Below, in pieces: positions 7,876 through 41,399 of a stretch of DNA of 64,000 nucleotides (positions within the stretch are counted from its first letter, which is position 1; the number at the start of each line of letters is the position of its first letter). The stretch is taken from contig JAQSCW010000055.1 of NCBI GenBank assembly GCA_029945625.1, forward strand, positions 62,001 to 126,000, written 5' to 3'. A program made the position numbers and the translations under genes. The notes under the pieces are model-generated. The model did not search any database. It saw only the letters and a program-made list of their open reading frames with translations, and was not told the DNA's origin. Source of the DNA: a bacterium (lineage in GTDB: Bacteria; Bacteroidota; Bacteroidia; B-17B0; Aurantibacillaceae).

Positions 7876-8026
7876 TCGCGCATTTTCTAAGTTAATTTCG
7901 TTCTAATTGTGCTAATTTTTTTAGTGCGACCCCAACTCATTTTTAGATGTGGCTAAACACTTGAAAAATTCCTTATTTAGAATGATTATAAATTAGGGAC
8001 TTGTATAAAATATTTAAAAAATTACC

Positions 8027-8056
8027 TTTATAATTATCAATCTTCTGTTAAATTTG
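8027..8056 (+). promoter_or_regulatory. Candidate housekeeping promoter of the act-cox operon
   Basis: TAAATTTG at 8049-8056 fits the Bacteroidota -7 box TAnnTTTG. TTTA at 8027-8030, 18 bases upstream, is one base off the -33 TTTG box. Transcription would begin near 8062 and leave a leader of about 60 bases before the cytochrome gene. The region is very AT-rich, so chance matches are possible. Confidence 0.4.
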
Positions 8057-8124
8057 CCAACGTTTTATGTCATGAATATGTCATAATTAGAGCGAAAACA
8101 GATTATATTTTCTCATTTTTATAT

Positions 8125-9408: not shown

Positions 9409-9439
9409 TAATTACGAATCTTAAGAAATTATATAAGTA

Positions 9440-26579: not shown

Positions 26580-27011
26580 TCACTTTTTAGCCTTCTTTTT
26601 AAACACCGAGAAGTTCTCTTTTGCCTCATCACGGGTCACTTCTTTATCGTAATAATGCTTATCGGTCATGGATGGATTTTTATGGTTGGTGAGTGCGGTT
26701 GAAGCCATTCCAAATTCTTTGTAGGCGCTGGTCATAAAGGTTTTTCTGAGGTTGCGGAAGGTGATGGCTTTGCCTGTATTTAGGAGCGCATAATAATGCG
26801 AAAAGGATCGGCTGATAATTCCGGCCACGTTTGAGCGTTTTAGGCCATCCTCCGGGGCTATTATGTACTTGTCGGTACCTTTGTACCTTTCAAAGCCCAT
26901 TTCAACCAAAAGCTCCCCAAGTTCTTGCGTAATGGCAAAGTACTTCCTAATCCGGTCGTTTTCGCTGATCCGGTGGCTATTTGCGCTATCAATTTTGTGG
27001 TCAATGTGGTA
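26580..27011 (-). pseudogene. Tyrosine recombinase, C-terminal remnant 1
   Basis: The minus-strand frame is open for about 144 codons, from a stop at 27012-27014 to the stop at 26580, without a proper start. The product matches the C-terminal half of a phage-type integrase: ITFRNLRKTFMTSA (the HxxR-like box, with F in place of H), a following LTNHKNPSMTDKHYYD containing the candidate nucleophile Tyr, and a Lys-rich tail. The N-terminal arm-binding and core-binding domains and the first catalytic Arg are absent, so it is probably inactive. A second, shorter copy of the same 3' end lies at 41745-41905. Both sit immediately beyond a tmRNA-derived att site. Confidence 0.8.
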
Positions 27012-27068: not shown

Positions 27069-27626
27069 TTAATATTTGAAGCCTTTGCCAGCATCGTGTT
27101 CCAATTTTACTCCTAATCCAAGAACCAATCTGTTGACAAAGTTAAAATAGCCAATTACTAATGTTGCATCTAAGATCGCCCTATCTTCTACACCAAGAGT
27201 CTTTAATTTTTGCATTAATAGTTCAGTTGTAATATTCGGAACTCGAGTCAATTGCCACGCTAATTCGCAAAGAGTTAGATCAACCGCTGAAAGTTCTGCC
27301 TTTGCGAAATCTCTTTTTAATTGCGAAATTATAGTTTCATTTTTTAAATACTTATTTAAAGCCTCGGTATGATGCGCAACACAATAGTCACATTGATTTG
27401 TAACACTTACCACAACTGCTATCATTTCTCGCTGTGTTCGAGTTAAAGGTGATTTCCCAAACATAAGCGTCATATATAAATCCATGTGTTTTACGATGGA
27501 TTCAGGGTTTAGGCTTTGTATCTTGTGAACTTCAGCGAGTTTCCCTCTTTTAGAAACAAGGTCATCGTAAATTACTTTCAATTCTCCTTCAGATTCTTCG
27601 TGTTCTATAACTTTAATTAGTGCCAT
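27069..27626 (-). CDS. AhpD-like carboxymuconolactone decarboxylase family protein
   Basis: The 185-residue protein has the CMD/AhpD core with the redox motif Cys79-DY-Cys82-VAHH, as in peroxidase-related AhpD-like enzymes. It begins with LIKVIEHEESEGELKVIYDDL, typical of the uncharacterised peroxidase-related subfamily. Likely role: peroxide or hydroperoxide reduction with a thiol partner, fitting the thioredoxins upstream. It is the last gene of the island's first minus-strand block and lies 45 bases after the small membrane protein gene. Substrate unproven. Confidence 0.85.
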   Translation of the reverse strand: MALIKVIEHEESEGELKVIYDDLVSKRGKLAEVHKIQSLNPESIVKHMDLYMTLMFGKSPLTRTQREMIAVVVSVTNQCDYCVAHHTEALNKYLKNETIISQLKRDFAKAELSAVDLTLCELAWQLTRVPNITTELLMQKLKTLGVEDRAILDATLVIGYFNFVNRLVLGLGVKLEHDAGKGFKY

Positions 27627-27671
27627 TAAAATTTAATTAGACGCTTTGTATTTACTATTTGTGTATGGTTT

Positions 27672-27872
27672 TTAAGAATTAATTTCCTTCAAGGCTTTGC
27701 CAGATGAGTATAGTGAAACGCAAAATGGCACGGCGTAGGTCATGAGAATTTTTGCGATCAGTTTGAAATCCCAATTATTTAGTAGAATCACATCCCAACT
27801 GTTAATCAGATTGAGCAAAGTGCCAACCGTTAATGCTATTTTTATTGCAGTAAGGGTATTTTTGTTTCGCAT
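27672..27872 (-). CDS. Small two-helix membrane protein, NrtS-like
   Basis: This 66-residue protein has two hydrophobic segments (about 8-26 and 36-58). The pattern GTLLNLINSWD...ILMTYAVPFCVSLYSS resembles the short NrtS nitrate/nitrite transporter family, which I recall as two-helix proteins with GTxLNxINQGD and TYxVPYCVS motifs. Its start overlaps the 3' end of the upstream thioredoxin-family gene by 31 bases, so it is translationally coupled. Function is inferred from motif memory only. Confidence 0.6.
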   Translation of the reverse strand: MRNKNTLTAIKIALTVGTLLNLINSWDVILLNNWDFKLIAKILMTYAVPFCVSLYSSGKALKEINS

Positions 27873-28465
27873 TTTTGAATTAGAGTTGCTATTTCTGAAA
27901 TAATTGTTTGGCCTTTATCCCGTGCATACCATAAATGAAGGTCATTTTCAAATTCATCCCAGCTAATGGTAGATTTGTTTTCTTTCCAATTTAACATAAT
28001 GGCCTGCGCTGCCATAGGTCTTGGTCCCCACGTCGTACAAACTTCGTTCGATTCTGAATTGATAACTATCAATTTCGGGATCGACTTAGTTCCATTTGTT
28101 TGAAAATTTTCAATTAATTCAGGGAAGGTATCTCTAGATATAATTCTAAACTCTATTTTTCCGTTTGAAACATCTGCCAACTTATTCAGTATTGGAATAA
28201 TCTGTGCGCAATCACCACACCACGCGTCTCCTATCAACAGCCATTTCTGAGTTCTTTTGATTCGTGTGAAATTTGGAATAAGATCTGAGGAGATCTGAAT
28301 CGTTTTGTCCAATCGATTCATCCTTTGAATATTAAGTTTAGTGTACTTCAAAAGCTGCTCGCTTTGAGCAAAACCGGTGGTATGCCCTTGCAAAACTAAT
28401 TGATCTATTAATGCACGGTATTTTGCGTATGTAAGACCAAACTCATATATAGTTTTAATTTCCAT
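27842..28465 (-). CDS. Thioredoxin-family protein, CGDC active site
   Basis: The ATG at 28465, one base after the upstream stop, is preferred over an upstream in-frame TTG at 28480. The product (207 residues) has no signal sequence. It carries WCGDC in a thioredoxin-like fold (LLIGDAWCGDCAQIIPIL), with the cis-Pro region KSIPKLIVI. This is the Thioredoxin_9 type seen in Bacteroidota and Firmicutes. Probably a cytoplasmic thiol oxidoreductase; partner unknown. It overlaps the next gene downstream by 31 bases. Confidence 0.82.
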   Translation of the reverse strand: MEIKTIYEFGLTYAKYRALIDQLVLQGHTTGFAQSEQLLKYTKLNIQRMNRLDKTIQISSDLIPNFTRIKRTQKWLLIGDAWCGDCAQIIPILNKLADVSNGKIEFRIISRDTFPELIENFQTNGTKSIPKLIVINSESNEVCTTWGPRPMAAQAIMLNWKENKSTISWDEFENDLHLWYARDKGQTIISEIATLIQKCETKIPLLQ

Positions 28466-28466
28466 A

Positions 28467-28907
28467 TTATTGCCCAACAAATTGTTTTAGAATATTTAGT
28501 AATTCTTCGGGGGAATGATAACCTACCGCCTTTCCAATAAACTTGCCGTCAGGTTGCAAAAACATCAAAGAGGGATAACTATCAACTGCATACTTCCTCG
28601 CGAGACTGGGGCCTTCGCCTTCTTCCATATCAATTGCAACACATACATAATATTTATTGAAATGCTCTCCAACTTTAGCGTCAGTAAACGTTTTGCGCTT
28701 CATCGCTTTACAAGGGCCACACCAACTAGCGTAAGCATCTAAAAAAATGAGTTTATCTTCCTTTTTAGCTTTTGCTAGTGCCTCCTCCCATGAACCTTTG
28801 AAGAATTGAATACCGGAGCTTTTATCCTCAAAATTAGTTTGGCTTCTAAATGCTACAACTAAGGCTCCAATTGTAAATATTAATAGGACTATTGCAATCT
28901 GTTTCAT
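28467..28907 (-). CDS. Exported thioredoxin-like protein, CGPC active site
   Basis: The 146-residue protein has an N-terminal signal anchor (residues 3-20) and a thioredoxin domain with WCGPC (Cys63 and Cys66) and cis-Pro in DSYPSLMFL. It resembles the DsbD-gamma/Thioredoxin_7 type, so it probably reduces periplasmic thiols. It is followed one base later by the ATG of the cytoplasmic CGDC protein; the two may act in one reductive relay. A 150-bp gap separates it from the NRDE gene upstream. Confidence 0.87.
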   Translation of the reverse strand: MKQIAIVLLIFTIGALVVAFRSQTNFEDKSSGIQFFKGSWEEALAKAKKEDKLIFLDAYASWCGPCKAMKRKTFTDAKVGEHFNKYYVCVAIDMEEGEGPSLARKYAVDSYPSLMFLQPDGKFIGKAVGYHSPEELLNILKQFVGQ

Positions 28908-29057
28908 TTTATTTTGTTCTATAATTTTTTAATTGTTTTAAGGCTGCTCCACGTCTCAAACATTTGATCTTAAACTACATTTTGATATTTAGGTTGATTG
29001 TTCATCTTTACAATTAGCTATTCACACTTCCATCATCAAACGTTTCCCAATGTAATT

Positions 29058-29798
29058 TTAGAATGCATTTGCGTATTCAGTTTGATCCAACTTAATCAAA
29101 CTTGTTTTATTACGGATTAAATCAACGTATTTGAAAAAAGCATTGTCGTTTTTTAAATGTATTTGTGAAATGCTTAGGGTTCGAAGGTCTTTATATCCCT
29201 GCATCAAGATGTCATTTGTTGAATCTAAACCATGCTTTCTATTATGGAAATCGAGAATCATTTTATCTTCAAACTGCTCATGTTTTTTTATCCAGTTTTC
29301 AAACAAGCTCAGCCTAATATCCTGTATTGGTTTTGAGTATAAGGTTGCTGATGACCATATTTGAGTATCAACTTGAGATAATGATTTTAAATATTTATTT
29401 TGTCCATCCCAACGAAATTCGTTAAAGTATTGCAAGGCACCATTCGAATAATCAAGAATAAGTAATGTAAACGGCTCAACTCCATCTAAGTTGGTTTTGT
29501 CAGAAAACTCCGAGATGTCTTTGTATTCAAAACTTTCAAGTAAAATCAACCCTCGGCTTTTTACATAGTTGTATTCTTTTTTATGATTTACAAAAGCCCC
29601 ATTTAACAAACAAGCAGTTTTACCTTTGGAATCAGAAGCAATCCATGTACCACCCGCCTTTTCATCTTTGGGATAAATAAGACTTCTACCATTTTCTGAA
29701 TATCTGACAGGAGGAATGGTACGTCGACTTACTCTTTCATCTCTGCTGGAGGTGAAATAAAATCCATCTGAAGTTGGAACAAAAGTTACTGTGCACAT
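29058..29798 (-). CDS. NRDE/TANGO2 family protein
   Basis: The 246-residue protein begins MCTVTFVP and contains SRDERVSR, the NRDE-like motif region, plus DEKAGGTWIASDSKG and ACLLNGAF, all standard for the TANGO2/NRDE family. The N-terminal Cys may become the catalytic nucleophile of an Ntn-type fold after Met removal. Eukaryotic and bacterial relatives have been linked to haem handling, which would suit the neighbouring cytochrome P460, but this is inference. The start overlaps the end of the DinB gene by 13 bases. Confidence 0.85.
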   Translation of the reverse strand: MCTVTFVPTSDGFYFTSSRDERVSRRTIPPVRYSENGRSLIYPKDEKAGGTWIASDSKGKTACLLNGAFVNHKKEYNYVKSRGLILLESFEYKDISEFSDKTNLDGVEPFTLLILDYSNGALQYFNEFRWDGQNKYLKSLSQVDTQIWSSATLYSKPIQDIRLSLFENWIKKHEQFEDKMILDFHNRKHGLDSTNDILMQGYKDLRTLSISQIHLKNDNAFFKYVDLIRNKTSLIKLDQTEYANAF

Positions 29799-30292
29799 AC
29801 TTTAATATGACGAATGGTTGATGGAGCGTAACCAAAGTTATCCTTAACTAAGGAAGTCAATTCCATTTCTGTTATGGCAACTTTAATTAATGCTTGATGA
29901 TGAATACTATGTTCGAGATTATAAGCAAGCTCCCTGTAGAAGGAGGATTGAATATTAGTAGCATTTTGATTTTCGATTACTGAATAATCTGCGACAAATG
30001 TTACAGTGAAATCACATTTGACCTCCTTTAAAGCGATCACAATTTCTTCAATAGTATTTGTCGCAAATTGAAGATTGGTTTCCAACATTAGATCTCGTTG
30101 ACGAGCATCATAGTTAACGATTTTGCTTTCTTTCCCTTTGAAAAGGCATTGATAGAATTCTAAAATGTGCCTCACATGCTGTCCTATTGAAGCTTCGCTT
30201 AAGATTTCAAGCTTACGGTTATATTGATCCGCATTTAGACCGTTAAGTAGGTTCTTTATTTCTAATAAGTTATTTATGATGTGTCCCGTCAT
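29786..30292 (-). CDS. DinB-like four-helix protein
   Basis: The 168-residue protein has the DinB/YfiT layout: GQHVRHILEFY (first metal His) and YNLEHSIHHQALIKVAI (two more His), on a four-helix scaffold. Many members use a divalent metal in thiol transfer reactions with bacillithiol or mycothiol-like cofactors; most are uncharacterised. It overlaps the downstream NRDE gene by 13 bases and follows the cytochrome P460 gene in the same block. Confidence 0.82.
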   Translation of the reverse strand: MTGHIINNLLEIKNLLNGLNADQYNRKLEILSEASIGQHVRHILEFYQCLFKGKESKIVNYDARQRDLMLETNLQFATNTIEEIVIALKEVKCDFTVTFVADYSVIENQNATNIQSSFYRELAYNLEHSIHHQALIKVAITEMELTSLVKDNFGYAPSTIRHIKVCAQ

Positions 30293-30347
30293 GATTTAAT
30301 TATTTAATTATTGGCATATCCAATTATCGGCTAAGCCTTGGCGAATA

Positions 30348-30887
30348 TTATTTGGAAAAGATAAAATCCTTGCTTGAAGCAGCATTGTGACATCCGCCGC
30401 ACATTCCACTCATTAAACTAGCACCACGCATTGGTTGGCCACCGGCATCTTTGGCAATTTTGCCATCGGGCATAAGCATAAAAAATTCCCAATCACCTAT
30501 GCTCGAGTTAAAATTGTTTCCACGTTTCACCATCGCCACAGTTTCACTTACAGTATTTGCTGGATTTGTGCTTCGCTTCACTATAATAGTACCAACAGGA
30601 TACTTCCCACTAACCGGATTTTGACCATCCTTAAAATGCACCATTCTTGTTACAGTGCTGTCGTTACCCGCATGCGCAGTTCCTAAAGAAGGACTCGGTC
30701 CAGTTTTCACAGATTGTACGGTCCAAGTTGTATAACTTAAAAAGGATGTGCTATCCGCGATGAACTCCTGAGTAGCTGTTGGTGTTGGTTCAGGTGTTAC
30801 ATCATTTTTTTCCTTTTTACAAGATTGAGTAATTGCAAGCGTAAGAAATAGAAAGCCAATTGTTATGGAAAGGGTTGTTTTTTTCAT
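30348..30887 (-). CDS. Cytochrome P460-family lipoprotein
   Basis: The 179-residue protein has a lipoprotein signal (TQSCKKEK, Cys near 23), a mid-region YPVGTIIVKR and WEFFMLMPDGK, and a C-terminal haem site CGGCH (residues 163-167) followed by SSKDFIF. This C-terminal CxxCH after an all-beta domain is the cytochrome P460/cytochrome c'-beta pattern. Relatives oxidise hydroxylamine or bind NO. P460 itself needs a cross-linking Lys whose presence I cannot assign. It heads a block of seven minus-strand genes and has the ECF-type promoter motif upstream. Confidence 0.8.
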   Translation of the reverse strand: MKKTTLSITIGFLFLTLAITQSCKKEKNDVTPEPTPTATQEFIADSTSFLSYTTWTVQSVKTGPSPSLGTAHAGNDSTVTRMVHFKDGQNPVSGKYPVGTIIVKRSTNPANTVSETVAMVKRGNNFNSSIGDWEFFMLMPDGKIAKDAGGQPMRGASLMSGMCGGCHNAASSKDFIFSK

Positions 30888-30928: not shown

Positions 30929-30959
30929 TAATAGTCGTGCATTTACCCCTTTCCTTACA
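30929..30959 (-). promoter_or_regulatory. ECF-type promoter motif C (cytochrome P460 block)
   Basis: Read on the minus strand, TGTAAGGA (30959-30952) is followed after 14 bases by CGACTATTA (30937-30929). The same arrangement and spacing occurs at 33957-33987 and 37176-37206. The start codon of the P460 gene is 42 bases downstream. Confidence 0.7.
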
Positions 30960-31062
30960 TTCAAAATCAGAAATTCCTTTTATTATCAAAGAGATATTCC
31001 GATAGATAATAGCCTCTTAATATTGTTAACCTTATATCATTGATATTGAGTTAGTTAAGGCT

Positions 31063-31734
31063 CTAATGATTTGTTAGCGACTTCAATGCTATGGCCGTAT
31101 TTATTTCGGCAACAATATCCTGGGCAACCTCCTTTTTAGACTTGAGTTCAAAATCAGTATGGGTTAAGTCTTTTCTCAAAACAGAAACTTTGTTCGTGTC
31201 ATGGCCAAATCCTTCGCCAGTTGCATTGGTGGTATTTAGGACTATAAAATCAAAATTTTTCTTTTTAAGTTTCCCCTCTCCATACTGCATAAGGTTGTCT
31301 GTTTCTAGAGCAAAACCAACTGAAATCTGATTGGGATTCTTTATTTTTCCAAATTCAAAAGCGATGTCCGGATTCTTAATTAATTCAATAGTCATCCTAT
31401 CATCATTCTTTTTTATTTTGGAAGCCTCCATTTTCATTGGTCTATAATCGGCCACCGCAGCAGTAAAAATGGCTATATCGATTTGCTGGAAGTGCTTGTT
31501 GCACACTTCCAACATTTCCAAGGCCGATTGAATTTTATAAACTCGCTCTGATGGCAAATTAGAATTTATGCATGAGGGGCCTGTGACCAAAATAACATCA
31601 GCACCTTCACTGTATAGCAGTTCTGCGATAGCATACCCCATTTTGCCCGTTGATGCATTGGAAATAAACCTTACAGGATCAATAAGTTCTTTAGTTGGAC
31701 CCGCTGTGATAAGTATCCGCTTTCCTTTTATCAT
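31063..31734 (-). CDS. Stand-alone CoaB-type phosphopantothenate-cysteine ligase domain
   Basis: The ATG at 31734, four bases after the YceI stop, is chosen over a TTG at 31749; the product is 223 residues. It contains the CoaB signature: ITAGPTKELIDPVRFISNAS followed by TGKMG, FTAAVADYRP, and a Lys-rich loop LKKKNFDFIVLN. In most bacteria this domain is fused behind the CoaC decarboxylase in CoaBC; here the CoaC part is absent. It would join cysteine to 4'-phosphopantothenate using CTP. As an island gene it may be an extra copy or act on another thiol-building substrate. Last gene of the second block. Confidence 0.82.
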   Translation of the reverse strand: MIKGKRILITAGPTKELIDPVRFISNASTGKMGYAIAELLYSEGADVILVTGPSCINSNLPSERVYKIQSALEMLEVCNKHFQQIDIAIFTAAVADYRPMKMEASKIKKNDDRMTIELIKNPDIAFEFGKIKNPNQISVGFALETDNLMQYGEGKLKKKNFDFIVLNTTNATGEGFGHDTNKVSVLRKDLTHTDFELKSKKEVAQDIVAEINTAIALKSLTNH

Positions 31735-31738
31735 TGAA

Positions 31739-32299
31739 TTAATATTCAATTTTAAAGGTCACTTCGATAGTCTTAGCAATATTTTTCGAAGGCTTACCCT
31801 TTTCGAAGGCTATTTTATAATCAGCCAAAACTATTTTTAATTTTGTATCTACAGTAATAAGACCTCCCTTTACAGAAATTACTGCTTTTTCTGTTACAGG
31901 GTTAGTCGTTTCCTTAATTGTCATATCACCACTAACTGTAGCATTATAAACGCCGTCTTTCGAAAAATTAATATCTTTTAAGTTGGTAATTTTTCCCTTA
32001 AATTTTGCTTTAGGAAATGTCTTAGTATTAAGAAAATCTTTACTATTGAAATGCTTTTGCATAAGCGCTTTTTCAAATTCAAAACTTTGCATGGGTACCG
32101 AAACAACCACTTCTCCATTTTCCTTGCTTAACGTAGCGGTTGAGGCATAATTAACGGCCTTAATATCTTCTGCGTCGGTGTGTGAAAAAATATCAACTTG
32201 ACTTTTTTTACTAACTAATTTCTCATCTGTTTGCTTAAAACTAAATAGGCCTACCATTGATAAGATCATTACTGTGGTTTTTAAATTTTTCATTTTCAT
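31739..32299 (-). CDS. YceI-like secreted lipid-binding protein
   Basis: The 186-residue protein has a signal sequence and the YceI beta-barrel features: MQSFEFEKALMQKHFNSKDFL, FPKAKFKG, and GDMTIKETTNPVTEKAVI. YceI proteins bind polyisoprenoid or similar lipids in the periplasm. It sits between the OB-fold protein and CoaB in one block, 26 bases after the former and four bases before the latter's ATG. Ligand unknown. Confidence 0.88.
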   Translation of the reverse strand: MKMKNLKTTVMILSMVGLFSFKQTDEKLVSKKSQVDIFSHTDAEDIKAVNYASTATLSKENGEVVVSVPMQSFEFEKALMQKHFNSKDFLNTKTFPKAKFKGKITNLKDINFSKDGVYNATVSGDMTIKETTNPVTEKAVISVKGGLITVDTKLKIVLADYKIAFEKGKPSKNIAKTIEVTFKIEY

Positions 32300-32325
32300 T
32301 TTTTGTTAGATTATTTATAATTAAA

Positions 32326-32811
32326 TTATTGGTTTATAATGTCACACTTTTCAAGTAGAACGTTTTCATAAAGTTCTAAGTCGCTGTCATAGTTGGCGCC
32401 GGATCGAATGATGCCTTTGATTGATACTTTTTGACCAGCATGTATTATTTCCGCATGTTTATTTGTAGAAGCCATGAACACACATTTAACTCCGGCCTTG
32501 TCAGTTTCGCTTTGCAGCAAAATAGTTATCTGATTATTCATGTCTATATCTATAGATTTTACTATTCCATTCACAACAAATATTTTCGAATTACCTTCGT
32601 CACTTAAATATTTGCCGTTCGCTTTTTTCTCGTCCTGTAAATACTCCATTACTAAGTTTGAAGCATCTATTGAAAAGTCGGCCTTTTGCGCTTGAACGTC
32701 TAAGTGTGGCATATTTAATAAGTAAAGAACATAAGCACCCCCAAACAATATTCCCAAAGCTAGAGTCAATAGAATATAATTTCTTCTTTTTTTTGTTTTA
32801 TCTGTAGCCAT
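32326..32811 (-). CDS. Membrane-anchored OB-fold protein (tRNA_anti-like)
   Basis: The ATG at 32811 (ATDKTKKRRNYILL) is preferred over the upstream frame extension to 32862. The 161-residue product has one N-terminal membrane segment after a KKRR patch. A soluble domain follows with VVNGIVKSIDIDMNNQITILLQ and GVKCVFM...GQKVSIKGI, the OB-fold pattern called tRNA_anti-like in Bacteroidota. These are extracytoplasmic proteins of unknown role, often near YceI genes, as here. Confidence 0.75.
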   Translation of the reverse strand: MATDKTKKRRNYILLTLALGILFGGAYVLYLLNMPHLDVQAQKADFSIDASNLVMEYLQDEKKANGKYLSDEGNSKIFVVNGIVKSIDIDMNNQITILLQSETDKAGVKCVFMASTNKHAEIIHAGQKVSIKGIIRSGANYDSDLELYENVLLEKCDIINQ

Positions 32812-32882
32812 ATTATAGTGTAAGTGTAATTGTTTTAAAATATGTAATGAATTAAAGTTCAAAATTATACTGTTGTGCGACT

Positions 32883-33311
32883 TTATTTCGACTCTTTTAC
32901 AAACTGTGTTACTACCATTCCAAAAATTACATGTCCCATAATACTACCAATCATCATTAATATCATGCTGCCCTCCATTGCTGGCATTCCACCAATCATA
33001 GCATCCATAATTCCAATGGCAATTTGCGCGAAAATAAAACTGGCTAATCCAAAAATCGCACCTTTTAGTAAATTGTTGTTTATCTTTTTCAATATATTGA
33101 AGAAAAAGAAGGCATATATGAGAGCGAAAATTATTCCAATCATAAAATGCATAAACCATCCTACAATTATTGGAAGACCCATCATCATTGATAGCATTGC
33201 AGGTGGACTCATCTTAGGTATGCCCATCTTTGGTGCAATCATCATCACAGCTGTCATCACTAAAGTGCCTGTAATACCTCCAATAAATGATTTTGATATT
33301 TTATTTTCCAT
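32883..33311 (-). CDS. Four-helix membrane protein (DUF6789-like)
   Basis: The 142-residue protein is almost wholly hydrophobic with four segments and many Met/Gly residues (MMIAPKMGIPKM, AIGIMDAMIGGMPAMEGSMI). It begins FIGGITGTLVMTAVMMIAPKMG, typical of the small DUF6789 membrane family. A plus-strand reading frame across the same bases is a shadow of its low-complexity sequence. Function unknown; in the same block as YceI and the thioredoxin. Confidence 0.75.
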   Translation of the reverse strand: MENKISKSFIGGITGTLVMTAVMMIAPKMGIPKMSPPAMLSMMMGLPIIVGWFMHFMIGIIFALIYAFFFFNILKKINNNLLKGAIFGLASFIFAQIAIGIMDAMIGGMPAMEGSMILMMIGSIMGHVIFGMVVTQFVKESK

Positions 33312-33340
33312 TGTTTTAGTTTTAAATTGTTTGAAATAAA

Positions 33341-33368
33341 TTGGGGACTATTTAAACATTGTCCCCAA
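33341..33368. repeat. Intergenic hairpin TTGGGGAC/GTCCCCAA
   Basis: A perfect 8-bp inverted repeat with a 12-base loop between the micro-ORF and the DUF6789 gene. It lacks a clear T run on the minus strand, so it may be an attenuator or processing site rather than a terminator. Confidence 0.5.
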
Positions 33369-33373
33369 CTCGT

Positions 33374-33496
33374 TTAATTTACTTTTACGTTTTGTATGCT
33401 ACTGTGCATTTTATCCTTTTTCAAAATTTGACTACAACTACATCCCGTCTTTGCACTTTGCAGTACGGCCATATTTTTTGATGGTATTTTTATCAT
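33374..33496 (-). CDS. Micro-ORF, 40 residues with CSCSQ
   Basis: On the minus strand an ATG at 33496 opens a 40-codon frame ending with TAA at 33374. It fills the gap between the thioredoxin gene (34 bases upstream) and DUF6789. The predicted peptide is basic and contains a Cys-Ser-Cys pair (TGCSCSQ). There is no clear Shine-Dalgarno, but neighbours lack one too. It may be a real small protein or a chance frame; not recognised. Confidence 0.3.
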   Translation of the reverse strand: MIKIPSKNMAVLQSAKTGCSCSQILKKDKMHSSIQNVKVN

Positions 33497-33529
33497 TTTT
33501 GTTAGGACTCTTTAAATAATGTGCTTAGA

Positions 33530-33928
33530 TCAGGCCCTTTTTAACGCTTTGTTAATAGTCTCTTTTATTTCTTCTGAGCTTTTTGCCACACTTATAGTTT
33601 CGATTACCTTTTTAGTTTTGAAGTCAATTAAAGTAATGATTCCGGTCGAAGTTGAGTTTTCTGCTACTTTAGTTATTCCTGCCGCATCTAAATCTTTTTT
33701 ACAGGCCTTTTTGGTAGCATCATCAGTAAGATCATTTGCAACCACCATTACATTTCCATCTTTGAACGAGGAAAAAACTTCTTTTCCCATTCGTTCGCCA
33801 TTTGCTTTACACGTTGGACACCAGTTGGCCTTTGTAACAAGGCAGATAACTTTTGGTTTAGATTGTGCAAAAACATTTACACCGATAAATAGAATAAAAA
33901 GCGCTAGTAAAATTTTAATTTTTTTCAT
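33530..33928 (-). CDS. Exported thioredoxin-like protein, CPTC active site
   Basis: The 132-residue protein has a signal sequence cleaved after VFAQ (residue 22) and a thioredoxin-like domain with WCPTC (Cys37 and Cys40). The Cys pair comes unusually soon after the signal, so the first strand and helix are short. A second Cys occurs in KKACKKDLD. Probably periplasmic. It is first in the second minus-strand block and lies 29 bases downstream of ECF-type promoter motif B. A plus-strand frame over it is a shadow. Confidence 0.82.
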   Translation of the reverse strand: MKKIKILLALFILFIGVNVFAQSKPKVICLVTKANWCPTCKANGERMGKEVFSSFKDGNVMVVANDLTDDATKKACKKDLDAAGITKVAENSTSTGIITLIDFKTKKVIETISVAKSSEEIKETINKALKRA

Positions 33929-33956
33929 TGTTTTTATTTTTTAGAGGTTTATACTA

Positions 33957-33987
33957 CATTAGTAGGACAGATTCTTGAATCCTTACA
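33957..33987 (-). promoter_or_regulatory. ECF-type promoter motif B (thioredoxin block)
   Basis: On the minus strand TGTAAGGATTC (33987-33977) is followed after exactly 11 bases by CTACTAATG (33965-33957). Sequence and spacing match motifs A and C. The start codon of the thioredoxin gene is 29 bases downstream. Confidence 0.72.
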
Positions 33988-34084
33988 GAAAATTCGAATT
34001 TTTTTTAATTGCGTTTCAATTAGGTATTTTGAAACAACAGTTTGTCTAAAAACGCTTCAGGAATATTTAACAAATTATGCTGTA

Positions 34085-34777
34085 TTAGTTTCTGATACTC
34101 ATATACAAATCGTTTTTCTTGATATAAAGATTAATGGTTTCGGGATTCATGTAACGTTGATTTAATTTTTCCGCATTGCCATCACTGGCCGCACCTTTCC
34201 ATTCTTTAATTTGAAGAGATTCTCTTACATATTTACTCCAATCAAACAACTGAAACCCTAAACCATGATTAATACATGCAAGATCAGTATTGAATTCAAA
34301 TCGGTCAGTATTGCTAGATTTGAATTTTTTAAAAAAAAGGCGGATCAGCTGAAAAGATGTTTTGTTATTAAATTCAACTAAATGTGCCAGTTCATGACCC
34401 AAGACACCGATCTGTGCGTTATACGGCAAGTTTTTAAATAAGATTGGACGTATTTGCTTGATTGTATTCTTGCTTATAGTTATGATATATGTGCGTTGTT
34501 TCCTTTTTCTAATTAATCCCATCAAACGTGGCCTTGTTGACAGAGGAGTTATTCGGTTTCGGAACTGGAAGATAATTTTTGATTCTTTTAATTCGGGATA
34601 ACAAGACAAAGCATTTAGAACCTGACTTTTAATTTCTTCGGGAATAGTTTTTCGGTTACCTAAATTTGTATCGCACAAAGCTTGGCCTTGTGCTGCACTC
34701 AAACATTGAACAGGAAATTGGGCCGACAAAATGCTAGCTGAGCAGAATATTAATAGGATGATGACAAGTTTATCCAT
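34085..34777 (-). CDS. Exported HExxH protein, putative metallopeptidase
   Basis: The 230-residue protein has a signal sequence ending near ILSAQ and a zinc motif GHELAHLVEF (His128, Glu129, His132). A later Asp or Glu region (RFEFNTDLACINHG) could give the third ligand in a gluzincin-like arrangement. Not assigned to a named family. It is the last gene of the LysE/ATP-grasp block, one base after the barrel protein. If active it acts outside the cytoplasm. The 156 bases downstream contain the next block's promoter motif. Confidence 0.65.
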   Translation of the reverse strand: MDKLVIILLIFCSASILSAQFPVQCLSAAQGQALCDTNLGNRKTIPEEIKSQVLNALSCYPELKESKIIFQFRNRITPLSTRPRLMGLIRKRKQRTYIITISKNTIKQIRPILFKNLPYNAQIGVLGHELAHLVEFNNKTSFQLIRLFFKKFKSSNTDRFEFNTDLACINHGLGFQLFDWSKYVRESLQIKEWKGAASDGNAEKLNQRYMNPETINLYIKKNDLYMSIRN

Positions 34778-34778
34778 G

Positions 34779-35372
34779 CTAAGTTCTCTTAAGCATATAA
34801 TTGAAGTGAAGTAATAGACTGTTCATCCAGCCCTGCCCAACATCCTTTCCATTTGTCACAACATTAATTTCTCTCCCAAATCCAGTTGTAATTCCAAACT
34901 GTAAGGGAATTGACTTAAGGCGAATAAAATAGCCACCCTCTATCCAAGGCTGGAGGACTAAAGTGTAAGTTTGACCCTTTGTATAGTTCGGTTCTCCAAT
35001 ATCATTTTTCCAATTTATCCACATGTTCCAAATATCACAATGGAGACCAAAAACTATTTTACCCAACTTTAATGGAACGTGTTTCCTGTATCCCATTGAT
35101 CCGCCAAAACCTTTCCCTTTCTCATTATCGTTGTAGGGACTATAGTCTTTTCTGTCTGCATAATTAATTCCTAATCGAAACAAAAGAGAGCCTTTTTGAG
35201 AAACGTAATTTTCGAACGTAACACATGAAATAAGCCCAGCGGGATAGATTTGTAGGGAAAGACCAACTGTTTTAAAGGAATGTATTGTGTCTTTTTTTTG
35301 TGCAAATAACCGATGGCCTTTCACTATGCAAATCATAAGTAAGAAAATGTAAATAATCCGTTTCGTTTTCAT
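34779..35372 (-). CDS. Exported beta-strand-rich protein, probable outer-membrane barrel
   Basis: The 197-residue protein has a signal sequence ending at LFAQ. A series of amphipathic strands rich in Tyr, Trp and Gly follows (FKTVGLSLQIYPAG, GSLLFRLGINYAD, TLVLQPWIEGGYF), ending with LLLHFNYMLKRT, an aromatic C-terminal strand. This looks like a small outer-membrane barrel of the kind common in Bacteroidota; no specific family is recognised. Three bases separate its start from the ATP-grasp stop. Confidence 0.6.
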   Translation of the reverse strand: MKTKRIIYIFLLMICIVKGHRLFAQKKDTIHSFKTVGLSLQIYPAGLISCVTFENYVSQKGSLLFRLGINYADRKDYSPYNDNEKGKGFGGSMGYRKHVPLKLGKIVFGLHCDIWNMWINWKNDIGEPNYTKGQTYTLVLQPWIEGGYFIRLKSIPLQFGITTGFGREINVVTNGKDVGQGWMNSLLLHFNYMLKRT

Positions 35373-35375
35373 TAA

Positions 35376-36422
35376 TTAAATCAATTTCAGTTGTTCTTCC
35401 AATTGTTTATTTGCCCTGAGCATTTCACGGCCAGCTTTATAATCAAGATATGGATGTCCATTGTTAAAGTTCATCCTGCTTATTGAGTACATAAGTTTCC
35501 AATGTTTTATTATTTCTTTCCAAGCAAATAATAAAGAATGTTTTGGGTCATAAATATGTGTGGGGTCACTTCCTGCTCCGTTAAGTTCAATAATGCTAAA
35601 ATTTCGACCTTGTTTTAATTCATCCATTGACGAATACCGTATATCTAATCTTCCGAAAAAGAAACCGGGAATCTGTGTACAAATCTTATTCATTGTATCA
35701 GTCAGCTTTTGATCAACCTCATGGGTAATATCTAAAAATTTAGCGCCTCTGGTATGGCTTCCAAATGGAACTAAAATAAAGATTTGCTTAGCCACTAAGA
35801 TGGTGTTCAAGTAATCGCCGTATTTTCTTTTTAAAGTTTTGAGCTGAAAATGACTTCTCGGATCTTTTTTAATTAGTTGTAGAATACTTTGAATACCATC
35901 TCCCTCCACACACATAAACTCTTTTGAAACAATACCAGTTATAATTCCGTGAGATTCATTTGGAAGTCGCACATAAAACAAACCTATTTCATGTGGAAAT
36001 TCTATTAACTCTTGCAATAAAAAACTATATGGCATTTTGGCCATGTAATTTTGCAGTTCTTCATCAGAGTTAATTTTATCAACGCCAAATGATTTCATGC
36101 CTATATCAGGCTTGGCTATCATTGGAAATTCAATCCCTTTGGTGCGGCAATAAGTAAGGATAGATTCTATATTTCTGTTATCGTTTACAAGAATGGTCTT
36201 AGGGATATATTGTTGTGGAATCAAATCATAAATTTCTTCTTTAGATTCCATTGCCATTCCGCCATTTTTAATACTTGGATTTGCAGCATTAAAAAAGAAG
36301 AAAGATCTCGCCTTTAACGCCAAATAGAACCAAACGGGGAAAATAGGGTAATAAACCATGGCCATTGGCCAATATTCCCAATTTAGTAGTCGATGAATTT
36401 TCAATTTTATGTAAGTCTGCAT
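35376..36422 (-). CDS. ATP-grasp domain protein
   Basis: The 348-residue protein shows the ATP-grasp order: a Lys-bearing FPMIAKPDIGMKSFGVDKI (about 115-133), YSFLLQELIEFPHEIGLFYVR, and the metal-binding FFFGRLDIRYSS...FSIIELNGAGSDPTHIYD near residues 270-305. The HEIGLFYVR and ELNG motifs resemble D-Ala-D-Ala ligase-like proteins. The first 45 residues are aromatic and could associate with the membrane. It presumably ligates an acid to an amine using ATP. Neighbours are a LysE-type exporter, a barrel and a metallopeptidase. Substrate unknown. Confidence 0.72.
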   Translation of the reverse strand: MQTYIKLKIHRLLNWEYWPMAMVYYPIFPVWFYLALKARSFFFFNAANPSIKNGGMAMESKEEIYDLIPQQYIPKTILVNDNRNIESILTYCRTKGIEFPMIAKPDIGMKSFGVDKINSDEELQNYMAKMPYSFLLQELIEFPHEIGLFYVRLPNESHGIITGIVSKEFMCVEGDGIQSILQLIKKDPRSHFQLKTLKRKYGDYLNTILVAKQIFILVPFGSHTRGAKFLDITHEVDQKLTDTMNKICTQIPGFFFGRLDIRYSSMDELKQGRNFSIIELNGAGSDPTHIYDPKHSLLFAWKEIIKHWKLMYSISRMNFNNGHPYLDYKAGREMLRANKQLEEQLKLI

Positions 36423-36428
36423 AAATAA

Positions 36429-37103
36429 TTATTTTCTCTCTTCTCTATTAATTTCAAGCAATTTCAATCGAGCAATTTTTAAAAATGGGAACATCAAATA
36501 AAGTGCAAACCCTAGGTAAAAAAGGCCCATTATCCATGAGATTAACGCACTGTACTTTGTGTAATTTTCAAAAATGAGTCGTCCTGCAAAAATAAAAATC
36601 AGAAAACCTGCCACAGAACCAATAGCAATTCCGAAAATATAAAAAGAGAACATACCGGGTTGTTTATCCAATGTATTTTTTGCGATTAACACAGTGTTCC
36701 AACTAGCCCAAAACGGCAGATGCATTGGGTTCAAAGCGCTCATCAATAATCCAAGTAAGAACGGAGATTGTATTAAAGGAAATGGTGTTTTACTAAACTC
36801 AACATTGGATGCGTTTGTTGCCGAGTGAAAATTTGAAACAGCAAGAAACAAGAGTAAGGAAATAGTAACTGGCATCAAATAGTTGAACAGTTTGCTGCCA
36901 ATCTTTAGTTTATCCGTAAAATTTAGTGAAAGTCTAACGATAATTAATTCGACAAGAATAGCAGCCGCAGAAAAAATTAGTGCAGCCTTAGTTGTCTGAG
37001 AGGCAGTAATCTGAAAGGCTGTAATATTTAGGCTGCCAAATGGCAGACTTCCTAAAAAGCTTATGAAGAGTCCGGATGAATAAATTTTCAAACGCCTCTT
37101 CAT
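36429..37103 (-). CDS. LysE/RhtB-type exporter
   Basis: The ATG at 37103 (KRRLKIYSSG) is preferred over a TTG at 37109. The 224-residue product has six hydrophobic segments, beginning GLFISFLGSLPFGSLNITAF, the LysE-family N-terminal pattern (PGP replaced by PFG). ALNPMHLPFWASWNTV matches the NPxxxxFW motif in the fourth helix. LysE-family proteins export amino acids or derivatives. It is first in the block that continues with the ATP-grasp ligase six bases later, suggesting export of its product. ECF-type motif A lies 73 bases upstream. Confidence 0.78.
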   Translation of the reverse strand: MKRRLKIYSSGLFISFLGSLPFGSLNITAFQITASQTTKAALIFSAAAILVELIIVRLSLNFTDKLKIGSKLFNYLMPVTISLLLFLAVSNFHSATNASNVEFSKTPFPLIQSPFLLGLLMSALNPMHLPFWASWNTVLIAKNTLDKQPGMFSFYIFGIAIGSVAGFLIFIFAGRLIFENYTKYSALISWIMGLFYLGFALYLMFPFLKIARLKLLEINREERK

Positions 37104-37175
37104 GCCCAAGGATAAGAATTAGATGATTTCCTGCTCTTTTGATCCGAAAAAGATAGTGATATAATGTACATACTC

Positions 37176-37206
37176 TAATAGTAGTACAGTAGAACGAATC
37201 CTTACA
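37176..37206 (-). promoter_or_regulatory. ECF-type promoter motif A (LysE/ATP-grasp block)
   Basis: On the minus strand TGTAAGGATTC (37206-37196), then 11 bases, then CTACTATTA (37184-37176). It sits in the gap between the anti-sigma gene and the LysE gene. The same 31-base layout recurs at 33957 and 30929. Confidence 0.72.
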
Positions 37207-37497: not shown

Positions 37498-38076
37498 CTA
37501 GGTATTAATCCAATTTTTTTCAAGGCAAGCTCTTAATTGAAGCTTGGCGCGATGAATGATTACCCAATAGTTAGTCGCAGTAATATTCAATTCCTTACAC
37601 ACTATTTCAGTTTCTTGTTCTTCAACCAATTTTAACAAAATTAATTGCTTTTGGTTTTCCTGCAATTTATCAATGCATTGATTTAAGGCATGAGCTAATT
37701 CCTTATTTTCAACCGCCTTTGAGTAATCAATTCCCCAATCTTTTGGCTGTGATTCTTGTTTCCAATCACCATCATCTGCAAAATGATTCGTAGAATTCTC
37801 AACACCATTAAATTGCAAAGACCTTAATTCATATTTAGTCGAGGATTTTCTATAATAGTCGGCAATTTTAAATTTCAATATTGCTAGCAACCAAGTTTTC
37901 TCTGTACTATCTCCTTTAAAGTTGTTTTGTGATTTAAGTCCGGCAAGAAATGTTTCCTGAACCCAATCTTCAGCCAATTGCGTATTACTAGTTTTCCTCA
38001 TTGCGTATGCAAAGAGATCGTCTCCGAAATCTTTTATCCAGTTTTGAGGTTGCAATACGTTTTTCGTTTCGGCCAT
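37498..38076 (-). CDS. ECF-type RNA polymerase sigma factor
   Basis: The 192-residue protein has region 2 (DDLFAYAMRKTSNTQLAEDWVQETFLAGLKS, with the core-binding and -10 motifs) and region 4 (LQENQKQLILLKLVEEQETEIVCKELNITATNYWVIIHRAKLQLRACLE, the -35 helix-turn-helix), with no region 3. This is an ECF sigma factor. It is followed by a zinc-type anti-sigma gene. It has a good housekeeping promoter of its own rather than the TGTAAGGA motif. I infer that it reads promoter motifs A, B and C in this island. Confidence 0.9.
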   Translation of the reverse strand: MAETKNVLQPQNWIKDFGDDLFAYAMRKTSNTQLAEDWVQETFLAGLKSQNNFKGDSTEKTWLLAILKFKIADYYRKSSTKYELRSLQFNGVENSTNHFADDGDWKQESQPKDWGIDYSKAVENKELAHALNQCIDKLQENQKQLILLKLVEEQETEIVCKELNITATNYWVIIHRAKLQLRACLEKNWINT

Positions 38077-38087
38077 AAATTATTTTA

Positions 38088-38119
38088 CAAAGGTAAGAAA
38101 GTATGTATATTTTGCTAAA
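38088..38119 (-). promoter_or_regulatory. Housekeeping promoter of the sigma/anti-sigma pair
   Basis: On the minus strand TACCTTTG (38095-38088) fits TAnnTTTG exactly, with TTTA (38119-38116) 20 bases upstream as the -33 box. Transcription would start close to the ATG at 38076, leaving a very short leader. Confidence 0.5.
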
Positions 38120-38162: not shown

Positions 38163-38465
38163 TTAGTTGTTCTGCTTTTCATGATGTCTTTTATGAAAAT
38201 AGGTATAGCACAATTTCCCAACAACAAAATAACAGACAAGTACAAATAATGCACCAGCATAAATTCCATTACTTTTAATCCCATCAATTCCGTATCTATA
38301 AAGGAATAAGGAAATAGAGATGGCAAAATTTAAAATGCCATAAACGATATTAGCAGTATTTCCAAAGCCGAATGCGCTCAGCATTCTACCTTTCCAAATA
38401 CCCAAAACAAAGTGAGGGATTGTGTTAATGAGCGTTAGTCCAATAATAAAATCAATAATATTCAT
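38163..38465 (-). CDS. Small membrane protein divergent from TetR regulator
   Basis: The ATG at 38465 (NIIDFIIGL) is preferred to an upstream in-frame start at 38519 because the latter would run through the operator. The 100-residue product has three to four hydrophobic segments and a His/Lys tail (HKRHHEKQNN). Family not recognised. It is transcribed away from the TetR-type gene and shares the 83-bp intergenic region with the palindromic operators, so it is the likely target of that regulator. Confidence 0.65.
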   Translation of the reverse strand: MNIIDFIIGLTLINTIPHFVLGIWKGRMLSAFGFGNTANIVYGILNFAISISLFLYRYGIDGIKSNGIYAGALFVLVCYFVVGKLCYTYFHKRHHEKQNN

Positions 38466-38483
38466 GATAGGTAGTTTAAGGAT

Positions 38484-38527
38484 TAGTACAAATGTACTAA
38501 TATTTCGAATATAGTACAACTGTCCTA
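38484..38527. promoter_or_regulatory. Twin palindromic operators for the TetR-type regulator
   Basis: TAGTACA-AA-TGTACTA (38484-38499) is a perfect palindrome, and TAGTACA-AC-TGTCCTA (38512-38527) is the same with one mismatch; their starts are 28 bases apart. They lie between the divergent small membrane protein gene and the regulator gene, the normal place for a TetR operator. Confidence 0.72.
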
Positions 38528-38548
38528 ATTATTTTCTACTTTTGTTTT

Positions 38549-39172
38549 GTGACCACAAAAGAGAAAATACTGGATGCATCTAGGAGATTGTTCAATACCG
38601 ATGGATTGGCTAAAGTATCTGTAAGGGACATTTGTAAAGAACTTAATATCAGTGCAGGAAATTTCTCTTATCATTTTCCAAACAAGGACAAAATAATTTT
38701 AGGGCTTTACAAGGATATGCTTAAAGAGGTGCAAGTTGCGTTTGAAACACTTCCTAGGGCCGAGATTTCGATTACTCTCTATCTGGAATCGCACAAGAAA
38801 GTGTTTCTGATTCAGTCGAAGTACAAATTCATTTTTTTGAACTTATTTGAAATCCTTACAAATTATCCGGAGGTAAAAGCAATTTATTTGAGAAATGCAG
38901 CCTTTGAAAGGCAAATGGCTAGAGAGCTGTTCAACTTATATGTTTCAAAAGGAATCATAAAGAAGGGAATTAACGAACTCCAATTTGAGAGAATATTAAA
39001 TGTTGGACAGATTTTGAATACTGCTTGGGTTATTGATGCTGAAATTGTTTTTAAAGGGAATAAGAAACAACAGATGGCTTATTACCTGAGTATTTGCTGT
39101 GGTTTGTTGGAACCTTATTTGATGGAGAATTCATTAGATGAATACAAAATGTACTTCAATAATCTAGTTTAA
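38549..39172 (+). CDS. TetR/AcrR-family transcriptional regulator
   Basis: The gene starts with GTG at 38549. The 207-residue protein has the TetR helix-turn-helix: ILDASRRLFNTDGLAKVSVRDICKEL followed by ISAGNFSYHFPNKDKIILGLY. The C-terminal ligand domain is the Bacteroidota-type long helical region ending DEYKMYFNNLV. It is the only plus-strand gene in the island and reads away from the small membrane protein. Twin operators lie just upstream. Ligand unknown. Confidence 0.9.
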   Translation: MTTKEKILDASRRLFNTDGLAKVSVRDICKELNISAGNFSYHFPNKDKIILGLYKDMLKEVQVAFETLPRAEISITLYLESHKKVFLIQSKYKFIFLNLFEILTNYPEVKAIYLRNAAFERQMARELFNLYVSKGIIKKGINELQFERILNVGQILNTAWVIDAEIVFKGNKKQQMAYYLSICCGLLEPYLMENSLDEYKMYFNNLV

Positions 39173-39485: not shown

Positions 39486-40307
39486 CTATAACTCTTTTAG
39501 TAACTGAGAAACCATTTTAAATCGTTCAATTACTTTATCTCCTGCATCTCTCACTTCATACATGGCATTAATTTCATCTTCAGAAAATCCTTGTAAGCGA
39601 GTAGATAAAATTTGCTTTAACTTATCTGATAATTCTGAATTGCCAGCAACAATTATTTTGATCTCTCGGCCAAGTAGTTTCGCAGAAGCAATTGGAAAAT
39701 CGAAGTTGTCCCTTATTAAATCTTCGTGTTCTACACCTTCAAATAATTGGTCTCCAGCTATCTCGCCATAATTTTCTAACAAGAAATAAAAATCCTGTAA
39801 ATCCTTTGCTCGTCTATCAGGCTTTTCAAGAAAGGCAATCAATTTTAATATGCATAGACCGGGCAGGGTAACAACCTTAAAGTCGCCTTCAACAATTTGT
39901 GCGTGAGCCACAGCTTCTTTGGTTCCGTAAACAGAAAGTTCGGTCGGAGGATTCTCTAAAAGAACTTCCCCGTTTTTTTCGATGCCACCAAATGGAATGA
40001 GATCAATAGTTCCATTGAAATAAAAACGATAAGGTTCTTCTTCATCTCTTTTAAAACCATAAGTTTCAGTTAGTGCTTTAATGAGATCTTGATATTGTTT
40101 GTGTTCATTGATGTAAATACAAAAGTCAACGTCCTCTGTTGTTCGCTTTTCGCCAAGGGGAATATGATCCGTCCACAAATCTCTCGCACGTGCGCCAATC
40201 AAATAATAATCTATCCCGAAGTTTTTAAAAACTAGTTCGAGAACTTCGAAAGTCTCCTTGAGGCCTTTGTTTTTTAAGCGTTCAAAATTTTCCTTTAAGA
40301 ATGTCAT
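39486..40307 (-). CDS. AbiEii-type nucleotidyltransferase toxin
   Basis: The ATG at 40307 lies inside the 3' end of the upstream gene (26-base overlap); a TTG at 40331 is also possible. The 273-residue protein has the nucleotidyltransferase layout: YYLIGARARDL, then TTEDVDFCIYI with the metal-binding Asp pair, then FNGTIDLIPFGG with a third Asp. It is followed by a helical region with LKLIAFLEKPDRRAKDLQDFYFLL, typical of AbiEii/AbiGii-like proteins. Such toxins modify tRNA or other acceptors and underlie abortive infection. Paired with an AbiEi antitoxin upstream, it forms a type IV toxin-antitoxin locus. Confidence 0.85.
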   Translation of the reverse strand: MTFLKENFERLKNKGLKETFEVLELVFKNFGIDYYLIGARARDLWTDHIPLGEKRTTEDVDFCIYINEHKQYQDLIKALTETYGFKRDEEEPYRFYFNGTIDLIPFGGIEKNGEVLLENPPTELSVYGTKEAVAHAQIVEGDFKVVTLPGLCILKLIAFLEKPDRRAKDLQDFYFLLENYGEIAGDQLFEGVEHEDLIRDNFDFPIASAKLLGREIKIIVAGNSELSDKLKQILSTRLQGFSEDEINAMYEVRDAGDKVIERFKMVSQLLKEL

Positions 40308-41292
40308 TATAAATTTTTTGTGCTGTTTCAATGCAACGATGATCTCCGGTATTCATTAAATCTGTATAAACAAGAATTGGATCAACGGCTTCAAAATTTG
40401 CATTATCGTGATTCCAAAATTTCTTGTACGCAATCACATATCCTTTTGGATCTGGAATTAGTTTATAGTTTTTCATTAACTCAACTCTGGTTTCCGTTGT
40501 GTATAAAGTCAGCACTCCGGGCTTCAAGTAATTGGTAAGTAATTGTCCCGCCGGTTCCCCGCCCCAGCAAGTCTTACCCGGCTTTAATTGAATGTCTCGC
40601 CAATTAATAAAATCATCAGGCTTTAAGAACTTGTATCTTCCAATTTCCAATTCGGGTTGAAGCTTTTCCGCATATTTAACCATCCATGTATTCAACAGTT
40701 CCTTTTTGTTGATGAGTAAATTTTCGTCCTTGTTCTTTCTAAGAAGGAATCCCTTTTCTTTCAGTCCATTCAGAATGTAGTTCACATTTCCCAAGGCGAT
40801 ATCGGCTCTGTTGGCTATTTCACGGTAAGGAGCGTTTATTAAGGTTTCGTCTCTAAAAATGTCATATACCACTTTTAAGCCTGTTTTTGTAAACGCTCTG
40901 TTTATTTTTTCTTTCTCTTCCGGAAGTGTTTTGTTCGTTTCTATCCAAATCAAGTTTTTTCCGAATTTTAACCAAACATTCCCGTTGCCTTCTAAATAAG
41001 CAATGTTATGCCTTCGTAGTTCCTCTTTTATTTTCGGAAAGATGTGATTGGCTATCACCATAAGTGGTGCAGCCTTTTTTGCCAAAGCGTAAATTTGGGG
41101 AAGGTGGATTGTTCTGAGGTTATTTTTGACCTCGGCATTTAATTTAATCAGATTTCCTTCATGGGCGAGGTCTATTTGTCCGTCAATTTCGGTCTCTTTC
41201 CCTTTTAAGGCAATAGTTCTCCATTTACCTTTAATATGGGTAGTTTTTTGGAGGTTCGCCAAGGCCAGCGTTGCTATTTCAGGTTCGTTCAT
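40282..41292 (-). CDS. AbiEi-type antitoxin and autorepressor
   Basis: ATG at 41292 is chosen; a GTG two codons upstream overlaps a GTTCAC site. The 336-residue protein has a winged-helix region (INAPYREIANRADIALGNVNYILNGLKEKGFL) and the C-terminal AbiEi pattern, GGEPAGQLLTNYLKPG and later VDPILVYTDLMNTGDHRCIETAQ. The N-terminal part (IKLNAEVKNNLRTIHLPQIYALAKKA) resembles a nuclease-like fold seen in this subgroup. AbiEi proteins bind inverted repeats in their own promoter and neutralise the toxin. The upstream GTTCAC array fits that role. Confidence 0.85.
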   Translation of the reverse strand: MNEPEIATLALANLQKTTHIKGKWRTIALKGKETEIDGQIDLAHEGNLIKLNAEVKNNLRTIHLPQIYALAKKAAPLMVIANHIFPKIKEELRRHNIAYLEGNGNVWLKFGKNLIWIETNKTLPEEKEKINRAFTKTGLKVVYDIFRDETLINAPYREIANRADIALGNVNYILNGLKEKGFLLRKNKDENLLINKKELLNTWMVKYAEKLQPELEIGRYKFLKPDDFINWRDIQLKPGKTCWGGEPAGQLLTNYLKPGVLTLYTTETRVELMKNYKLIPDPKGYVIAYKKFWNHDNANFEAVDPILVYTDLMNTGDHRCIETAQKIYNDILKGKF

Positions 41293-41399
41293 GTTCACTT
41301 ATTAATATCGTTCACGTAATCGTGAACATACAAATATAGTGAACAAAAGCTAAAAAACCAAACCGTTCACTTTCCCGCTTTGTTCACGAATTCGTGAAC
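41293..41399. promoter_or_regulatory. GTTCAC operator array of the AbiE locus
   Basis: Two palindromes, GTTCACG-TAAT-CGTGAAC (41310-41327) and GTTCACGAATTCGTGAAC (41382-41399), plus single GTTCAC/GTGAAC half sites at 41293, 41339 and 41365. Seven half sites in 107 bases directly before the antitoxin gene suggest cooperative autoregulation, as known for AbiEi. Confidence 0.82.

Follow-up and report, generated by a model that had tools for sequence, protein, structure and literature searches.

The minus strand of the window (the whole analysed stretch of 64,000 nucleotides) carries an island of redox and envelope genes in three blocks, each headed by the same ECF-type promoter motif. The locus raises the question of which sigma factor would read these motifs and how its output would be restrained. 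The preferred answer, given a probability of about 80%, is a self-contained, horizontally transferred ECF regulon in which the adjacent sigma factor would serve three block promoters and a further promoter inside its own gene, placed to drive the anti-sigma gene and to make the circuit self-limiting. The features concerned are the following:

38088 to 38095, minus strand: Bacteroidota -7 box TACCTTTG, likely the housekeeping promoter of the sigma gene
37498 to 38076, minus strand: ECF sigma factor gene, 192 aa (PF04542, E = 3e-11; PF08281, E = 7e-7)
37572 to 37599, minus strand: in-gene ECF motif TGTAAGG-N15-CGACTA, an exact match within the codons of the sigma region 4.2 helix-turn-helix
37213 to 37494, minus strand: cytoplasmic zinc (ZAS) anti-sigma gene, 93 aa (NCBIfam NF052368, over cut-off; C-X25-H-X3-C-X2-C)
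37176 to 37206, minus strand: ECF promoter motif heading block 1 (pattern match; relatives have a corresponding site past the anti-sigma gene)
34085 to 37103, minus strand: block 1, encoding a LysE-type exporter, an ATP-grasp protein and two proteins of unknown family
33957 to 33987, minus strand: ECF promoter motif heading block 2 (pattern match)
31063 to 33928, minus strand: block 2, encoding thioredoxin-fold, DUF6789, OB-fold (tRNA_anti-like), YceI and CoaB/DFP domain proteins
30929 to 30959, minus strand: ECF promoter motif heading block 3 (equivalent block-3 head site in loci L035-L038 and L040)
27069 to 30887, minus strand: block 3, encoding a cytochrome P460-like lipoprotein, DinB-like and TANGO2/NRDE proteins, two thioredoxins, a small protein and a CMD (AhpD-like) protein

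The sigma protein is of ECF size and contains sigma-70 regions 2 and 4 only (PF04542, PF08281); its closest NCBIfam model, TIGR02943, scored 142.8 bits, under the cut-off of 162.2. Of 34 loci examined, 33 have an anti-sigma gene next after sigma. The ZAS motif, in the form C/H-X23-26-H-X3-C-X2-C, is present in all 33 relatives of the anti-sigma protein, and no transmembrane helix was found in these relatives (highest 19-residue mean hydropathy, 1.5). The original prediction had placed an ECF sigma and a zinc anti-sigma gene directly upstream of the blocks, behind a promoter of housekeeping type, and the domain matches and the -7 box agree with it on each point. Upstream of sigma, TAnnTTTG occurs at 14 of 33 loci compared with 1 of 33 after shuffling, and no ECF site was found ahead of the sigma gene in the window.

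The three minus-strand motifs are all present as predicted, with identical spacing. They lie about 72, 29 and 42 nt ahead of the first start codons of their blocks (ATG at 37103, and 33928 and 30887), matching the predicted range of 29-73 bases, and the 16-17 genes expected behind them correspond to 16 ORFs (4 + 5 + 7) and a further ORF of about 40 aa. This short ORF (33374-33496, minus strand), which falls under the length threshold of the ORF lists, carries a CSC motif and lies just past the block-2 thioredoxin-like gene. A pattern search of the 4,118,804-base genome, which the original prediction had proposed, returned four matches to TGTAAGGA-N14-CNACTA, all on the minus strand of the island, so the motif is not scattered at random; the reversed pattern returned none. 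With the looser TGTAAG-N16-CKWCTA, five matches were obtained, four of them the island sites and one elsewhere, and its control also gave five in the genome. The three block motifs are not a product of chance. The fourth strict copy (37599-37572) ends 77 nt before the ATG of the anti-sigma gene. A weak match with two mismatches at 38475 (plus strand) was set aside. It falls between a TetR regulator gene (38549-39172, plus strand) and a divergent gene for a small membrane protein (together 38163-39172), where a palindrome, TTAGTACATTTGTACTAA, is the likely TetR operator and accounts for the match.

Comparison across the family connects the motif with the sigma gene, which has a clear orthologue in about 30 of the 87 genomes. 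Among genomes with sigma, 26 of 30 contain the motif, compared with 11 of 57 among those lacking it (Fisher p ~1e-9, uncorrected for relatedness); at least one of the genomes counted as lacking sigma, G062, carries a sigma gene truncated where a contig ends. In sigma-bearing genomes, most of the sites away from the sigma locus lie 31-85 nt ahead of a gene, and the genes behind them include those for MsrA, MsrB, CFA synthase (cfa), an AhpC/TSA-type peroxiredoxin and a DUF255 thioredoxin, as well as an Omp28-like protein, LpxR and another ECF factor. In genomes without sigma, most matches are antisense within genes.

The sigma loci are of two sorts. Clade A, whose sigma proteins are 62-67% identical to that of the window, carries versions of the window island, whereas most of the others precede a metallophore operon encoding an HvfA-type precursor, HvfB/MNIO, HvfC/DUF2063 and DoxX. 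In the clade-A loci L035-L040 the motif is present both within sigma and past the anti-sigma gene, and islands available at full length have it at the block-3 head as well. In L036, the block-2 type of promoter heads the homologous thioredoxin-like gene, which there immediately follows the anti-sigma gene. Matches to the looser pattern fall inside the island in 3 of 3 cases in G052, 3 of 4 in G047 and 3 of 5 in G063, all clade-A genomes. The original prediction of a promoter set tied to the neighbouring sigma factor is thus borne out by its confinement to the island, its equivalent places in relatives and its co-occurrence with the gene. That the three motifs instead belong to some other regulator, or are housekeeping promoters unlinked to this sigma, is very improbable: the link does come from sequence comparison, but the motif tracks the sigma gene across the 87 genomes, adjoins it in each of the six clade-A islands, and resembles the Neisseria sigmaE consensus (PMC2893595) rather than the Bacteroidota TTTG/TAnnTTTG promoter.

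The cargo behind the motifs varies. Block 1 is absent from the other island loci compared. In G049, one such motif heads MsrB, and the genes downstream encode homologues of DinB, TANGO2, ATP-grasp and LysE, the same as in blocks 1 and 3 of the window. Methionine sulfoxide reductase (msrA/msrB) and MNIO-DUF2063-DoxX targets are seen in other family members; the window genome has no strict site off the island, and no match to MNIO (PF05114) was found anywhere in it. Likewise, the HvfA/BufA precursor with its MNIO enzyme (the Bufferin/Hvf locus) was found in other family members and not in the window genome. One locus (L040, genome G019, 1466-9830) combines a clade-A sigma gene, an HvfA/MNIO/HvfC/DoxX operon and block-3 island genes, and likely joins the two island types. 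Five loci (L051, L057, L059, L065 and L066) have a further ECF gene, paired with a candidate anti-sigma gene of its own, 0.3-0.9 kb beyond the metallophore operon; at L051 the same motif stands about 37 nt ahead of this second gene, suggesting a sigma cascade.

The island also moves between genomes. Its DNA is 92.6-94.6% identical between three genera (G052, G016 and G063), while the coxA regions of the same genomes are 70-78% identical, and identity so far above that of coxA indicates that this version of the island has recently been transferred horizontally. The copy in the window is about 70% identical to that version. A C-terminal remnant of a tyrosine recombinase (26580-26909, minus strand; weak PF00589 match) lies at the island's distal end in the window, and upstream of the island is an AbiEii/AbiEi type IV toxin-antitoxin pair (39486-41298, minus strand).

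Neither this transfer nor the motif inside the sigma gene formed part of the original prediction. The in-gene copy is found in the same place in most relatives, where the end of its -10 element lies a median of 73 nt before the anti-sigma ATG. The corresponding codons of the 34 family orthologues read TGT AAG GAA ... xCG TCT AA. One explanation is that the block promoters are real and the in-gene match merely reflects conserved amino acids (C-K-E ... S/A/P-S/T-N) together with codon habit, with no promoter there. At the protein level the C-K pair and the residues after it do show strong conservation, and coding therefore dictates some of the match. The bases left free by the code nevertheless run against codon habit: TGT is used in 32 of 34 orthologues, AAG in 34 of 34 compared with 20% of lysine codons nearby, and xCG in 31 of 34 compared with a background of about 11%. 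The four columns with the highest synonymous conservation, out of 184, all fall within the motif or on the base immediately ahead of it. Where the wobble base departs, as in CCT ACT and ACT ACT, the DNA still reads CTACTA.

The wider set of 112 Bacteroidota orthologues gives the same picture. At loci with no site upstream of sigma, 84 of 88 xCN codons are xCG, whether they encode Ser, Ala, Pro or Thr (TCG 39, GCG 26, CCG 18, ACG 1), whereas loci with an upstream site have xCG in only 4 of 14, all of these counts coming from related and not independent sequences. On a tree built without the motif columns, at least 32 changes were counted at the first two bases of this codon and at least 9 at the wobble base. 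Non-orthologous ECF genes gave too few aligned rows to serve as a codon control. These codon patterns show the in-gene site to be under selection at the level of DNA, and coding constraint with codon habit as the whole explanation is unlikely.

Selection on the DNA could also come from binding by a repressor, an RNA structure that couples translation to the anti-sigma gene or a pausing signal. This is less probable still, although many Flavobacteriaceae have in-gene variants (TGTAAT or CGTCAA) that stray from the sigma consensus, with no further copy found genome-wide in three of these genomes, a point that also weighs against the preferred reading. Against it, the in-gene site agrees with the operon promoters in its two boxes, its exact gap of 16 nt and its median distance from the start of the anti-sigma gene. 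The codons for the DNA-reading segment of sigma seem also to spell a promoter that would switch on its own inhibitor.

The position of the site divides the lineages. The window's family and Flavobacteriaceae have a site inside sigma and none upstream, while Pedobacter, Mucilaginibacter and Chitinophaga have one upstream and none inside. Among the 112 loci, only L150 has both and fourteen have neither at the patterns used. As correlated evolution, this exclusivity was not significant in independent pairs; because evolutionary switches were few, the split between upstream and in-gene sites is only suggestive of mutual exclusion.

From these elements a circuit is proposed in which the activity of the sites as promoters, the inducing stress and the sign of the feedback are all predicted. 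Sigma and its cytoplasmic zinc anti-sigma would be made at a low level from the housekeeping promoter. If, as the ZAS motif suggests, the anti-sigma thiols were oxidised or attacked by metal, sigma would be freed and would then fire the three TGTAAGG-N15-CKACTA promoters and with them the 16 redox and envelope genes. Free sigma would also fire the promoter in the helix-turn-helix codons of region 4.2. Because this promoter would drive the anti-sigma gene alone, stress would raise the inhibitor without raising sigma, and since sigma itself has a housekeeping box and no ECF site ahead of it, the loop should limit itself. A broader proposal is somewhat favoured: in much of the Bacteroidota, the helix-turn-helix codons of this ECF factor may be a conserved overlapping code, a promoter for sigma's own use that drives the anti-sigma gene, and a shift of the site from ahead of sigma to inside it may flip a self-amplifying circuit into a self-limiting one, or the reverse.

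The analysis connects a redox island that lacked annotation with a stress regulon known across phyla, with its methionine sulfoxide repair and metallophore operons, and shows a mobile island equipped with a sigma factor, an inhibitor and matching promoters of its own. If true, the in-gene site would amount to a clear instance of dual coding, the DNA-reading segment of a regulator being its own target as well, and the sign of the feedback could be compared across sister lineages and tested by synonymous mutations alone.

Among the closest known counterparts is sigmaE-MseR of Neisseria meningitidis (rpoE operon NMB2140-2145), which is alike in promoter type and small ZAS anti-sigma and, as regards other family members, in msrA/msrB targets. 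The Neisseria sigmaE promoter has -35 GTMAGBWTT and -10 CGTCTAAH with a spacer of 12-13, msrA and msrB are among its targets, and MseR is a small ZAS protein whose motif cysteines matter for activity (PMC2893595). The corresponding pattern, GTAAGG(TT)-12/13 nt-CGTCTA, is found here with CTACTA or CGACTA in the window and CGWCTA in other family members, where genes for DUF2063 (NGO1945-type), MNIO and DoxX accompany sigma in Neisseria-like fashion. The two systems differ in wiring and content. In N. meningitidis the promoter lies ahead of the whole operon and autoregulation is positive (PMC3240639), whereas the window has no site before sigma and one inside it, ahead of the anti-sigma gene; the window genome also lacks an MNIO gene, and its island has its own cargo.

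RpoE2-HrsE of Haemophilus influenzae (ECF group 13) shares the small cytoplasmic anti-sigma and, with other family members, the MsrAB targets. In the portion of PMC7907618 available, RpoE2 controls MsrAB and a DoxX/UPF0276/DUF2063 cluster with a link to HOCl stress, HrsE is a 67-aa anti-sigma, autoregulation is described as little, and no in-gene promoter is reported; nor is the system an island of 16 cargo genes such as that of the window. Caulobacter crescentus SigF-NrsF shares with the sigma relatives an ECF factor over an MNIO-type operon (PMC3511200), and an MNIO match was obtained in the Caulobacter control genome. It was rejected as a template: its promoter is GTAACC-N16-CGAA, NrsF has six transmembrane segments and sigF is transcribed from its own upstream promoter.

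For an anti-sigma promoter inside a sigma gene there is an experimentally shown precedent in Corynebacterium glutamicum, where a SigH-dependent promoter within sigH transcribes rshA alone, starting 62-66 nt before the start codon, with a proposed role in shutting down the response (PMC3489674). That system belongs to another phylum and uses another promoter (GGAA/GTT type), and no mention of helix-turn-helix codons serving as the promoter, or of deep conservation, was seen in PMC3489674. A promoter in helix-turn-helix codons and a mobile island without the metallophore operon were likewise not found in the open-licence papers searched.

By promoter, anti-sigma type and the targets seen across the family, the window system appears to belong with ECF group 13, alongside Neisseria sigmaE and Haemophilus RpoE2. 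Since these three traits match known systems, the original prediction that the system was undescribed is only partly right: its kind is known, and what is new is the putative in-gene promoter, the upstream copy without an in-gene copy in Pedobacter and Mucilaginibacter, and the transfer of a self-contained regulon without the metallophore operon.
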